The notes beneath the pieces were generated by a model that worked only from the letters and a program-made list of their open reading frames with translations, searched no databases and was not told where the DNA came from. Below, one piece after another: positions 1 to 9,170 of a DNA stretch of 64,000 nucleotides. The position numbers were made by a program, and so were the translations under genes. The stretch is from the NCBI RefSeq assembly GCF_002940205.1, contig NZ_MDSK01000014.1, positions 1 to 64,000 of the forward strand, read 5' to 3'. How positions within the stretch are numbered: position 1 is the first letter of the stretch; each line of letters starts with the position of its first letter. The DNA is from Xanthomonas arboricola pv. guizotiae. GTDB lineage: Bacteria; Pseudomonadota; Gammaproteobacteria; Xanthomonadales; Xanthomonadaceae.

Positions 1-120
1 CCTGCATGGTCAATTGTTCGCCACTTCTGACATGTACTGGAAAATTCCGCTGGTTGCGCCTCGCGTCGCGGCTGGTATTTCAGCAGCCTGCTAGACGCGG
101 ACCTTGGCCTTGCTCATAAG

Positions 121-906
121 GTGCCCTTGTCGAAACCGTTCACTAGGTCCGAGTACAACGCACGATGCCGACTTGGAGAGGGGCATTATCTTTACGAAGA
201 GTTGTTCGTACAAGTGAGCGCAGGTGCTTCTCCACTTTTCATATCCACGCCCGTTCTAAATGGAAACGCTCACTTCAATTACAGCTCCGAGCATGGGGAT
301 CTGGATGTGAACGATGTTTCGGAAAAGTTGGGAGAACCCGGCGTCATGGTGGACTGGCTACGAAAGTACACCAGTGAAGAAGGAATCAACTTTTCCCAGC
401 TCATCCACGATGACTACTTCTTGGCAATCAAGTTGACCTTCAACGCAGGCCTCTATGTCTCCGCAATGAAGCTTCTTGTCTGCTGCATCGACAGCTTGGC
501 GTATATCGAGTACGGAGACGACCGAGAGGCCTTCGCGAAATGGATGGAGGCGTATTGCGATCTAGCACCACTGGGCATAACCGCCGCGGAGTTGTGGGAA
601 CTGAGGAACGGCATACTCCATATGACAAATCTCAGTTCTTCCAAGGTGCGAAAGAACCAGGTTCGCCGGATATCGTTCAGAGTTGGAGATGCCCCGGAAA
701 TCCCGCGCGATGCTGGAGGGGTCTACTACTTCGACTTCCTTGGCTTGGTGCAGGCCTTCGCTCAAGCTCAGGCTCGCTGGATAGAGAGCTACAACGACGA
801 TCGAGGCAAGTTCGCGAAGTTCGTGGAGCGGTACGACGAGACGATCTCTGATAGCAGGGTGGCATTCGCGCACGTGGGCGGCAACGGGTTCGCAACAGCC
901 CCCTAA
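121..906 (+). CDS. HEPN-like hypothetical protein (261 aa)
   Basis: I do not recognise a named family. The protein is mostly helical, with no signal peptide or membrane segment. Near the middle it has LRNGILH (R162, N163, H167), which fits the R-N-x(2-4)-H signature of HEPN ribonuclease-type domains, preceded by helices compatible with a HEPN bundle (about residues 95-170). HEPN proteins often act as RNases in toxin-antitoxin or defence modules, but one motif is weak evidence. The GTG start lacks a clear Shine-Dalgarno; TTG at 127 has AAGG just upstream and is an alternative. The frame is open upstream to base 31, so a longer form is possible. It lies at the left of the accessory element with no obvious partner, although the sequence to its left is not visible. 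Confidence 0.6.
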   Translation: MPLSKPFTRSEYNARCRLGEGHYLYEELFVQVSAGASPLFISTPVLNGNAHFNYSSEHGDLDVNDVSEKLGEPGVMVDWLRKYTSEEGINFSQLIHDDYFLAIKLTFNAGLYVSAMKLLVCCIDSLAYIEYGDDREAFAKWMEAYCDLAPLGITAAELWELRNGILHMTNLSSSKVRKNQVRRISFRVGDAPEIPRDAGGVYYFDFLGLVQAFAQAQARWIESYNDDRGKFAKFVERYDETISDSRVAFAHVGGNGFATAP

Positions 907-1038
907 CTGGTTCTTTGGGCGCGGCACTCCGTAGGCACATGAAAAAGAAGAGGATGCCCTTGGGACATCCCCTCCGAAACACGGCCGGGCCACCCGTTGC
1001 CCTCTGCGCACCTAACCAACCCGGCCGGGTTTGCGCGG

Positions 1039-1317
1039 TCAGGCTGAGCAGAGCGCAAGGTGCGCTTGGTGGTAGCCAAGTCGGTCGGCCCGGCGCTTCG
1101 TGGCCTGGTCTACGTACAGGTCCAGCGCGCGGCAGTACTGCATGCCAGCCAGGCGCGCCGCGTCGTCGAAGTAGTCGGAGTATGGCCGGACGCCCGCGGC
1201 CTCTGCCCGCTCGGCCAGGCACGCGAGTATGTCGCCGCCGGTGCGCAGGGCAGACACCATGCCTGCGAGCGCAATGGCCGCCGGGTGGTCCGCTGAGTAG
1301 TGGGCCAGCCTACGCAT
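1039..1317 (-). CDS. Hypothetical protein (92 aa), element-borne
   Basis: This is a small, probably helical and cytoplasmic protein with no recognised domain. Its ATG lies inside the end of the upstream 241-aa gene, with an overlap of 8 bases, so the two are likely translationally coupled and co-transcribed. It is rich in Ala and Leu, with a Tyr/Asp-rich middle (PYSDYFDDAARL). I cannot assign a function. The coupling and position suggest it works with the 241-aa protein in the accessory element. Confidence 0.55.
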   Translation of the reverse strand: MRRLAHYSADHPAAIALAGMVSALRTGGDILACLAERAEAAGVRPYSDYFDDAARLAGMQYCRALDLYVDQATKRRADRLGYHQAHLALCSA

Positions 1318-2035
1318 CGCCGTCGCCCCCGATCAGTGCGCGCTCGATCTGCTGCTCGCGCATGGCCAGCGAGACCGTGCTGAGCGGGTTCGCCTTGCCG
1401 GCGGTCCAGGCGCGGATGGCTACCAGGATGCCCTGGAGGCGAGCGTCGCCCAGCTTGATGTACTCCCGCACCTTCAGGTAGTCGTCCTGCCTCATGGCCC
1501 CCGCGAACTCGGCGGGGCCGACAGGCCGGTCCTTCGTGGGCAGCTTGTCGATCAGGGAGAGTACGGCGGACGCGAGTGCCACGTTGGCCGTGCCGACGGC
1601 GACCTGGGCCATGTGCCCAAGCTCGGCGGGACCCGCGTGCTGGAGCTGCTGGAGGTACTCGGTGCGCTTCGGGTCGCCCAGTGCGGCGCGGGCCAAGACC
1701 TTCGCCGGGGAGTCGTAAAACTCTCGCTGGCCGACGAGCTGCGCGTGCGGTGCGCCGGCTTCCTTGAGGATCTTGTCCAGCTCGGCCTTTGAGTTGTCCT
1801 TGATCTCGCGGACGCTGGCGAGCGTCTCGTGCTCGGCGAAGCGCGCCACGTCGGCCATGCCGATGCCGGGGGCGCTCTTCCAGCGCGCGGCGATCTGCTG
1901 CTTGCGGGTCGCGATGTCCTTGTTGAGCCGCTCGATCGCGGCGAGGGTGCGCTTGTGCAGCAGGTCCAGGGTCGAGGCAAGCTCGCCGATCTGCTGGGTG
2001 CTGAGGAGGGGGGTGTCGCTGAGGGTGATCTTCAT
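1310..2035 (-). CDS. Hypothetical protein with N-terminal coiled coil (241 aa)
   Basis: The start is the ATG at 2035 (MKITLSDTPL) because AGGAG lies about 9 bases upstream; the frame stays open to 2227 but that extension has no ribosome site. Residues about 15-50 form a likely coiled coil (IGELASTLDLLHKRTLAAIERL). A Gly/Ala-rich helical region follows around 120-160 and an RQDDYLKVREYIKLGD stretch near 195. There are no catalytic motifs, signal peptide or clear membrane segment. It is first in a two-gene unit with the 92-aa gene and lies downstream of the terminase-like gene, so a phage or satellite role is plausible but unproven. Confidence 0.6.
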   Translation of the reverse strand: MKITLSDTPLLSTQQIGELASTLDLLHKRTLAAIERLNKDIATRKQQIAARWKSAPGIGMADVARFAEHETLASVREIKDNSKAELDKILKEAGAPHAQLVGQREFYDSPAKVLARAALGDPKRTEYLQQLQHAGPAELGHMAQVAVGTANVALASAVLSLIDKLPTKDRPVGPAEFAGAMRQDDYLKVREYIKLGDARLQGILVAIRAWTAGKANPLSTVSLAMREQQIERALIGGDGDA

Positions 2036-2268
2036 GCTCGTTGGCTCCTGTGAGGTTGTAGTCCTCCGGTCGCCTGTCACGAGCGCATCCCCAGCCGTGG
2101 GGTGGTCTGCGCGCCAATGCGCTGACCGGATGCCTGCAATGTGTCGCGGAGCGTTGGGCGCGAACGCCATCGTTTCCCGGACGTGTTTCCCTCGGATCTG
2201 CCGCGGTCGCTGCGGCTTGCGAATCATGGGCGTGGCATCGCGCCACCCACCGATGGAACGTCGGGTGG

Positions 2269-2298
2269 TTGACTTCAGTTATTTAATTTAATTACACT
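2269..2298 (+). promoter_or_regulatory. Sigma-70-like promoter for the 89-aa HTH gene
   Basis: TTGACT at 2269-2274 and TACACT at 2293-2298 are separated by 18 bases of very AT-rich sequence. The AT-rich block stands out against the GC-rich flanks. It lies about 45 bases upstream of the ATG at 2342. Confidence 0.55.
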
Positions 2299-2341
2299 CA
2301 ATTTGCCATCCCGGCAGCAGTTCACACAGGAAATTAGAGAT

Positions 2342-8550: not shown

Positions 8551-8571
8551 GCACTCCCCCTGGGCAACGCC

Positions 8572-8637
8572 ATTAAATAGTCTGTTTTGGACTAATCCAA
8601 TACGGACTCTAGCGTGCGGTGACCTGCCTGTCACCGC
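8572..8637. promoter_or_regulatory. Divergent promoters with two palindromes (regulatory switch region)
   Basis: Minus strand: TTGGAT (8600-8595), 17-base spacer, TTTAAT (8577-8572), driving the 153-aa gene. Plus strand: TTGGAC (8587-8592), 17-base spacer, TAGCGT (8610-8615), driving the XRE gene. The two -35 hexamers overlap within the palindrome TTGGACTAATCCAA (8587-8600). A second perfect palindrome, GCGGTGAC (8616-8623) and GTCACCGC (8630-8637), lies 3 bases before the XRE start codon. These are good candidate operators for autoregulation by the XRE protein. Confidence 0.55.
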
Positions 8638-8640
8638 GCG

Positions 8641-8928
8641 ATGGCCCAATCGACCCACAACCCCGACTATCAGCTACTGCTGACCGTCCTGAAGGCGGCC
8701 CGCAAGCGGGCAGGCGTGTCGCAGGTCGATCTAGCCGAACGGCTGGGCAACACGCAGACCTTCGTGTCCAAGTGCGAGCGCGGGGAGCGGCGCATCGACG
8801 CCGTGGAGCTGGTCGAGTTCGCCGAGGCGCTCGGCGTGGAGCCGCTCAGGCTGCTGGGCGAGTACCTGGAGCAGCGCGCGGCCAAGCTGCGGCCGAAGTC
8901 CAGAAAGAGCAGCGCGAAGGGACGCTGA
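8641..8928 (+). CDS. XRE-family transcriptional regulator (95 aa)
   Basis: A Cro/CI-type helix-turn-helix covers about residues 13-70 (KRAGVSQVDLAERLGNTQTF, then SKCERGERRIDAVELVEFAEALG). A short basic tail (KLRPKSRKSSAKGR) follows. The protein is small, with no separate ligand or cleavage domain, so it is probably a simple repressor. Its start codon sits next to a perfect palindrome that could be its own operator. The divergent neighbour shares the promoter region. It ends only 9 bases before the element-borne tRNA-Thr. It could keep the element quiescent, which is inference from position. Confidence 0.85.
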   Translation: MAQSTHNPDYQLLLTVLKAARKRAGVSQVDLAERLGNTQTFVSKCERGERRIDAVELVEFAEALGVEPLRLLGEYLEQRAAKLRPKSRKSSAKGR

Positions 8929-8937
8929 CCGCAGGGA

Positions 8938-9013
8938 TGGTGCCGCTTGTCCGAATCGAACGGACGACCTACTGATTACAAATCAGTTGCTCTACCGACT
9001 GAGCTAAAGCGGC
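8938..9013 (-). tRNA. tRNA-Thr (anticodon TGT), apparently element-borne
   Basis: A full cloverleaf can be drawn on the minus strand. The acceptor GCCGCTT pairs with AAGCGGC, the D arm is GCTC/GAGC, and the anticodon stem ACTGA/TCAGT encloses loop TTTGTAA (anticodon TGT). The T arm is GTCCG/CGGAC and CCA is encoded. It lies 119 bases inside the truncated tRNA-Thr at 9133-9170 and differs from it in acceptor and D-loop, so it is not simply its displaced other half. It would supply threonine tRNA lost through disruption of that gene. Confidence 0.92.
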
Positions 9014-9132
9014 GATGTCGTACTTCTCTTGCTCAAACCGTGACCGGCTTGTCCCGCAGTCTACGCGCTGGCGAGCCTAAAGCCTTGCCGCGCTTAGCCT
9101 TCTGGCTCGTCACCACAACAACCGCGTCCGAG

Positions 9133-9170
9133 TTACAAGGCGGTTGCTCTACCAACTGAGCTATGCCGGC
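9133..9170 (-). pseudogene. 5' half of a tRNA-Thr(TGT) gene, cut at the anticodon loop (element junction)
   Basis: On the minus strand the sequence starts with the acceptor GCCGGCA, then a normal D arm (GCTC...GAGC), then ACCGC and the anticodon loop CTTGTAA. It then loses all tRNA similarity: no matching anticodon 3' strand, T arm or acceptor 3' strand follows. This is the expected scar of a tyrosine-recombinase element inserted at the anticodon loop. Sequence at lower coordinates is accessory and at higher coordinates core, so 9133 probably marks the right end of the element. Confidence 0.75.

Follow-up and report, generated by a model that had tools for sequence, protein, structure and literature searches.

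What kind of element breaks a tRNA gene of its host in the anticodon loop and carries a complete copy of such a gene next to the break? The question is raised by the start of contig C14 (NZ_MDSK01000014.1) in the draft genome of Xanthomonas arboricola pv. guizotiae (G000, 160 contigs), of which we analysed positions 1–64000, the stretch called here the window. Positions 1–9170 hold part of an element that a first-pass annotation of this DNA had taken for a satellite of the P4 type or of the type of the phage-inducible chromosomal islands (PICIs). The assignment to the Gram-negative PICI type is supported by a conserved core, a size of ~11–12 kb, an integrase, a regulator, prim-pol and TerS, and by the lack of recognised structural genes. 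Our analysis leads to a more specific answer: the window probably contains a PICI-like phage satellite, in a damaged state, that splits tRNA-Thr and supplies the replacement tRNA. This replacement of the split gene by one borne on the element is its most unusual feature, and the earlier annotation had missed it.

Integration at the anticodon loop

The right end of the element, from the host gene inwards, comprises four features, all on the minus strand:

9133–9170 (−): 5' half (38 nt) of the split host tRNA-Thr(UGU) gene
9133–9139 (−): 7-nt core CTTGTAA, the anticodon loop of the split tRNA
9014–9132 (−): right attachment-site arm (the linker), with an arm-type site near 9035–9043
8938–9013 (−): complete element-borne tRNA-Thr(UGU), found with Rfam and ARAGORN

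A tRNA-Thr is thus present, as the first-pass annotation had said in describing an insertion in such a gene, but the one at 8938–9013 is the complete copy of the element, and the split host gene is the 5' half at 9133–9170. Because the window starts at the edge of C14, the left end of the element is cut off by the assembly. The missing piece is the end of contig C19 of the same genome, which matches a relative from Luteimonas (L014) from the point where C14 stops to the far junction, and which holds a tyrosine integrase of 395 amino acids (aa; C19:91603–92787), one conserved gene and the tRNA-Thr 3' half (C19:91386–91434). Most of positions 94–9171 is collinear with the same Luteimonas genome, the main blocks showing 87–91% DNA identity. 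The impression that the element has no integrase arose from the contig break and no longer holds; the integrase and the 3' tRNA half that had been looked for to the left are both there, on C19. The fear that phage structural genes might lie on that side, or that gene order might not be conserved, proved unfounded, as the left part holds the integrase and one conserved gene instead and the order is kept among the relatives.

Both junctions are visible in nine loci (the window genome, L014, L015, L016, L018, L028, L030, L031 and the remnant in G004), and in all nine the 5' and 3' halves of the tRNA overlap by exactly the 7-nt anticodon loop, the core being CTTGTAA for Thr-UGU and TTCGTAA for Thr-CGU. 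Neither junction forms a complete tRNA; a complete tRNA-Thr lies ~110–130 nt inside the 5' half. Five further loci allow the 5' junction alone to be read, and throughout the resulting set (14/14: ten elements and the remnants in G004, G007, G018 and G023) the anticodon of the element tRNA is that of the split gene; L120, L123, L124 and L125 are outside this count because the 5' junction is absent from them. In G000 and L014, the 3' half that was displaced is undamaged (45/45). The integrases form a UGU group (four sequences, 90–95% identical) and a CGU group, 66–74% apart, and since the core contains the anticodon and the integrases are divided in the same way, integrase, site and tRNA seem to travel as one specificity cassette.

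The arm-type motif ACACGGTTT (at most one mismatch) occurs in every one of the 22 arms inspected, at +96 in ten of the 12 right arms and at −139 in nine of the ten left arms, against a background of 0.036 per 240 nt inside three elements. This near-fixed distance in both arms, seen also in a relative (G024) without the linker-plus-tRNA arrangement, leads us to read the linker as an arm of the element's attachment site (attP), and its arm-type sites for the integrase would account for its conservation. In view of its conservation, we also considered the 119-nt linker as a structured RNA or group I intron, a candidate rejected as Rfam has no match there. The small RNA proposed in the first pass likewise found no support, since at E 0.1 Rfam returned nothing beyond the tRNA locus, apart from a single sub-threshold match to the opposite strand of that locus.

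In L017, the replacement tRNA-Thr(CGU) at positions 172–245 is very unlike the others and has no TAGCTCAG motif, which suggests that replacement tRNAs were acquired independently.

Apparent dependence of the host on the element tRNA

ACA codons need the UGU isoacceptor. Rfam identifies 49 tRNAs in G000, all 49 of which are also read with ARAGORN, and the element gene is the only tRNA-Thr(UGU), beside Thr-GGU and Thr-CGU. On this census, the host appears to depend on the satellite for its only tRNA-Thr(UGU). Among the 25 congeners compared, five, the window's genome included, have the Thr-UGU gene split by this linker. In G004, G007, G018 and G023 the host gene is split, and a search for an intact host-type copy found none; at E 1e-30 the last three have no integrase, and that of G004 is cut to 297 of 395 residues. 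The element tRNA in these four genomes is identical to the window's (76/76), with a linker that has drifted by 9–20%. Twenty congeners match only from the tRNA 5' half on, and all nine of those inspected have an intact host tRNA. That the tRNA stays unchanged in decayed elements suggests a lasting effect of satellites on the core tRNA set. G017, whose host gene is intact and whose tRNA of the element type bears four changes (72/76), offers a contrast that bears on tRNA retention, but as one case it is only suggestive, and it is weakened by L014, where the host gene is split and the tRNA also differs at two of 76 positions.

If this is correct, the arrangement would provide a testable route by which a satellite could become indispensable, the host tRNA gene being broken and the only copy residing in the satellite.

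The satellite family and its phage relatives

The family consists of 15 loci, window included, several of them partial. Five chromosomal relatives came from a primase search (Luteimonas aquatica, whose primase is 88% identical to the window's at the protein level, a Lysobacterales metagenome-assembled genome (MAG), an Alcaligenaceae genome, a Planctomycetota MAG fragment and an Azoarcus MAG), and four IMG/VR contigs from a search with the linker pattern. Alignment of a conserved open reading frame (ORF240) added four further contigs, the other four of its eight matches being contigs already found, and G024, a congener, was found through its integrase. The core genes were compared by tblastn of the core proteins, unmasked tblastx having been dropped for its GC-rich noise. 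In the orientation of the Luteimonas element, the order is tRNA 5' half, linker, complete tRNA-Thr, cargo, HTH_17 regulator, prim-pol/DUF5906 primase, a gap of ~600 nt and TerS, followed by the 81-aa and 148-aa genes, ORF240, the 92-aa and 171-aa genes, cargo, the integrase (opposite strand) and the tRNA 3' half. The length from core to core ranges from 10.6 to 12.0 kb (L014 11.9, L015 12.0, L016 11.4, L018 11.0, L028 10.6, L030 11.8, L031 11.8 and G024 11.1 kb). Besides the right end given above, the window copy contains:

1–94: end of an insertion sequence (IS)-like insertion at the contig edge, with an inverted-repeat-like 21-mer at 74–94
121–906 (+): 261-aa cargo protein, weak phrog_12390 match
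1039–1317 (−): conserved core ORF of 92 aa (ORF92), recurring in relatives
1310–2035 (−): conserved core ORF240, 240–241 aa, all-helical by low-confidence prediction
2263–2632: segment absent from L014, in place of the TerS end and the 81-aa and 148-aa genes
2303–2611 (+): 102-aa ORF inside this unshared segment, weak sigma-70 region 4 similarity
2595–2894 (−): truncated TerS-like protein, 99 aa, phrog_4044, E 5e-19
2895–3489: non-coding gap between primase and TerS, candidate origin or packaging region
3490–5862 (−): prim-pol/PriCT_2/DUF5906 primase-helicase, 790 aa, Pfam E 1e-24 and 1e-21
5866–6159 (−): HTH_17-like regulator, 97 aa, Pfam match below cut-off
6300–8088: variable cargo region
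7231–8067 (+): 278-aa cargo ORF without Pfam, PHROG or PADLOC match
8089–8658 (−): 189-aa protein common to L014 and, at the DNA level, G018
8641–8928 (+): XRE (HTH_3) regulator, 95 aa, profile match

Much of this agrees with what the first-pass annotation had described, namely the prim-pol/DUF5906 helicase with its two Pfam matches, the XRE regulator and an AT-rich stretch inside the primase–TerS gap (~3214–3290), a gap that also holds a hairpin and T-run after the primase and motifs in common with phages. Its AlpA-like regulator is retained as an HTH_17-like protein (23.5 bits against a Pfam cut-off of 27; 29.1 in the Luteimonas relative) and merits the AlpA label only in part, as the Pfam AlpA model matches only contig C5 in this genome. 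Its terS-like gene is upheld by the phrog_4044 match, in a form truncated to 99 aa against 170–198 aa in relatives. The absence of capsid, portal and terL genes that it reported is borne out, no capsid, portal, tail or TerL family appearing among the 11 scanned proteins of 1–9170. No phage structural or lytic genes were recognised in the window part or in the L014 core proteins and integrase, part of the cargo being left unscanned. P4 has the capsid-modifying genes sid and psu; these names did not turn up in general protein scans, in which no P4 query or control was used.

The window copy is a damaged satellite. Its TerS, 93% identical to that of L014 over the aligned part, breaks off after ~85 matching residues, whereas L014 and eight other satellites continue, so that the window is the exception among ten aligned satellites with respect to full length. 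The 81-aa and 148-aa core genes are missing by tblastn, the homology to L014 is broken at 2262–2633, and the conserved 171-aa gene on C19 (L026 8892–9396) is matched in two different frames, which also points to decay. The 21-mer at 74–94 recurs inverted at the end of C19 (C19:93613–93706) and once on C53, as expected if a copy of an IS broke the assembly; a transposase was not identified, and no search was aimed at one. The truncated TerS, the two missing genes, the core gene in two frames and the IS-like interruption make it probable that this copy is immobile.

G024 shows the other way of dealing with the target. Its element is inserted in tRNA-Thr(CGU) and carries a 3' half that makes the gene whole again, and the 3' half displaced by it (43 of 46 nt) is at the far end. 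TerS, the 148-aa protein and ORF240 are 90%, 97% and 95% identical to the reference queries, and the integrase is 96–97% identical to those of L015, L031, L120 and L123; two of these elements, L015 and L031, replace the tRNA. Elements that replace it (G000, L015) and one that rebuilds it (G024) share this type of integrase and form a natural experiment on the origin of such systems. In G024 (L118) and L120, the integrase adjoins the HTH gene and the core block is inverted relative to integrase and attachment site, as compared with L014 and others.

The cargo is diverse. L015 carries a methyltransferase and a likely restriction enzyme (the PADLOC match of the enzyme being weak, E 0.006), a pair found also in L031; L016 has a type II methyltransferase and restriction enzyme, and in L028 a PRTase-CE protein lies beside one with weak similarity in PADLOC. 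For the cargo proteins of the window, PADLOC gives no match (0/3). In the cargo of the Luteimonas satellite (L014 9223–9307), a tRNA with anticodon UUA scores 59 bits in Rfam and is without encoded CCA; expected to decode UAA stop codons, it is a candidate ochre suppressor carried by a satellite. On the 19.5-kb IMG/VR contig G418 (L124, L128), a satellite of the family is followed by a complete tRNA-Thr(CGU) and then by a second element with integrase-like, primase-like, TerS-like, ORF240-like and TerL genes of its own; the two are probably tandem satellites. ORF240, whose predicted structure (mean pLDDT, the predicted local distance difference test, 58.6) is too poor for a fold search, has no match in the phage collection; its homologue (36%) on the second element of G418 sits between the TerS-like gene, itself weakly supported, and TerL, a neighbourhood that hints at a role in packaging.

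A link to phages comes from the primase and TerS, whose best phage matches (50–55% and ~30–42% identity) lie in the same phages, Elanor, DLP4, PaMx74, QDWS359, the DoCa phages, AAT-1 and others, several of them annotated as Mesyanzhinovviridae, Bradleyvirinae. Primase, gap and TerS are likewise consecutive in these phages. Six 10-mers of the gap are shared by at least three of ten satellites and at least three of four phages, as opposed to none in 40 shuffles; they amount to two motifs, and the counts are not independent, several of the satellites and phages being closely related. The two motifs have the same order in satellites and phages, one just after the primase and the other towards TerS (VBv52 was included in the 10-mer count and left out of the comparison of order). 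From this collinearity we infer that the primase–gap–TerS block was derived from a phage of the Bradleyvirinae type and that Bradleyvirinae-like phages are the likely helpers, a concrete helper hypothesis for Xanthomonadales and Burkholderiales. One phage of this group, A1432, is described as lytic (PMC11236537).

We propose the following model. A tyrosine integrase would recombine attP with the anticodon loop of tRNA-Thr and split the gene; attP would lack the tRNA 3' half, a complete tRNA-Thr of the same anticodon being placed instead ~120 nt inside the right end. The satellite tRNA would probably be transcribed from the host tRNA promoter, reading through the 5' half in a putative promoter capture, and the host would then need the tRNA of the satellite. 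Upon infection by a helper, possibly a Bradleyvirinae-like siphophage, the satellite may be excised and replicated by its prim-pol, starting in the neighbouring gap, and its TerS would direct its DNA into the heads of the helper.

The reading as a tRNA-replacing satellite starts from what the sequence itself establishes, that is, the split gene, the core, the arms, the matched anticodon, the retention of the tRNA, the gene order and the homology of primase, gap and TerS. Several observations weigh against it. With TerS only ~30–42% identical to phage TerS, helper compatibility is a guess; a TerL of the DLP4 type was not found in G000, in a search without positive control; and, as to a circular or packaged form in IMG/VR, all four contigs lack terminal repeats and three of them are flanked by host DNA on both sides. 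The draft census lacks Ala-UGC and Ile-GAU, so that a second Thr-UGU may be hidden, and positions 8880–9400 show no sigma-70 promoter consensus on either strand. In G024 the primase match is confined to the first 376 residues (42%), the exact linker pattern is found in one of 369 genomes of the class, the window's own, so that the family is not common, and ORF240 and ORF92 have no known function.

Some of these points would suit an integrative element with its own replication, phage-independent and plasmid-like or otherwise mobilised, whose TerS-like and primase genes are phage relics: neither a packaged form nor a resident helper was found, several core genes have no phage matches, and the family integrase is only 24–28% identical to four phage integrases. 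We regard this as unlikely, because relics would hardly account for a full-length TerS kept in nine of ten aligned satellites or for a primase–gap–TerS block collinear with Bradleyvirinae, gap motifs included, and no relaxase or conjugation gene is present among the proteins scanned (the window part, and the L014 core proteins and integrase). The damage to the window copy could also mark an ordinary prophage remnant that has lost its structural genes, an explanation made very improbable by intact relatives (10.6–12.0 kb between cores) whose gene order is the same and in which no structural genes were recognised. A different function for the tRNA, compatible with a tRNA-replacing satellite, is that it mainly resists tRNA-cutting anti-phage nucleases, gene replacement being secondary. 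The idea has been put forward for phage tRNAs (PMC10865867, PMC11476347), and the element tRNA does differ from the host gene in the anticodon stem; it seems quite unlikely as the main role, since in 14 of 14 loci the anticodon agrees with that of the split gene and the tRNA is kept after loss of the rest, as complementation alone predicts. More tentatively, and as a possibility that we would not yet call probable, the satellite lineage may have turned the replacement of an essential tRNA gene into a means of addicting its host. With an attP that needs little beyond the 7-nt loop and a tRNA brought along, it could enter hosts with differing tRNA-Thr sequences, and its tRNA, from then on the only isoacceptor, would be fixed even after decay of the satellite. 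On this view satellites would drive turnover of core tRNAs, near-identical integrases (96–97%) would serve both modes and Bradleyvirinae-like phages would act as helpers.

Comparison with known systems

Gram-negative PICIs are described as having an integrase, a replication module and a regulator, no structural or lytic genes, a size of ~12–15 kb, attachment sites that prophages never use, and induction, interference and packaging that depend on a phage (PMC6092414). The present family shows the same conserved organisation of integrase, replication module and regulator, and its size is at or just under this range. Like the PICIs of that account, its members (~12 kb) combine an integrase, an HTH regulator and a primase with an adjacent gap (a candidate origin), a TerS, which is present in some PICIs, variable cargo and no structural genes; G024 and L120 also have integrase, HTH gene and primase in one direction. 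They differ from the PICIs described there in the HTH_17 protein in place of a clear AlpA, in the tRNA replacement, in the Bradleyvirinae-type primase–gap–TerS block and, in G000, L014 and most members, in the integrase, which is at the far end and in the opposite direction. Elanor, DLP4, PaMx74, QDWS359 and other Bradleyvirinae share with the family the order of primase, gap (~0.5–0.7 kb) and TerS and the short motifs; they are, by contrast, full phages of ~55–64 kb with TerL and without a match to ORF240, and the family integrase has only distant phage matches elsewhere.

The closest parallel to the mode of integration is the tRNA-dependent lysogeny described by Guerrero-Bustamante and Hatfull in 2024 (PMC10865867), in which the common core is likewise short, the tRNA is rebuilt at neither junction and tRNA-rebuilding relatives exist (Ximenita beside Cain there, G024 here). 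In that system the split tRNA is essential and that of the phage is required. The elements described there are whole temperate phages of Actinobacteria, in which a promoter precedes the phage tRNA, whereas the present family, in which no structural genes are recognised and which is therefore not a temperate phage, is a satellite in Proteobacteria; its core coincides exactly with the anticodon loop, and its tRNA adjoins attP and follows the 5' half of the host gene. A Gram-negative precedent has been claimed for Sinorhizobium prophages related to Mesorhizobium phage Lo5R7ANS (PMC12429752), which are presented as prophages and not as satellites. PICIs with damaged displaced tRNA fragments have been proposed to resemble addiction modules through the tRNA gene (PMC10111431); these are satellites, and tRNA-based addiction is proposed for them as it tentatively is here, but in our case the 3' half that was displaced is undamaged and an entire gene takes the place of the split one. 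We found no report of a satellite with tRNA-dependent lysogeny in the open-access literature, subscription journals being mostly outside the search, and no described satellite of Xanthomonadales or Burkholderiales in the literature searched. If our reading is correct, tRNA-dependent integration extends from complete phages to phage satellites. What we describe is a family of PICI-like satellites whose integration replaces a tRNA gene, by a logic already known from phages.

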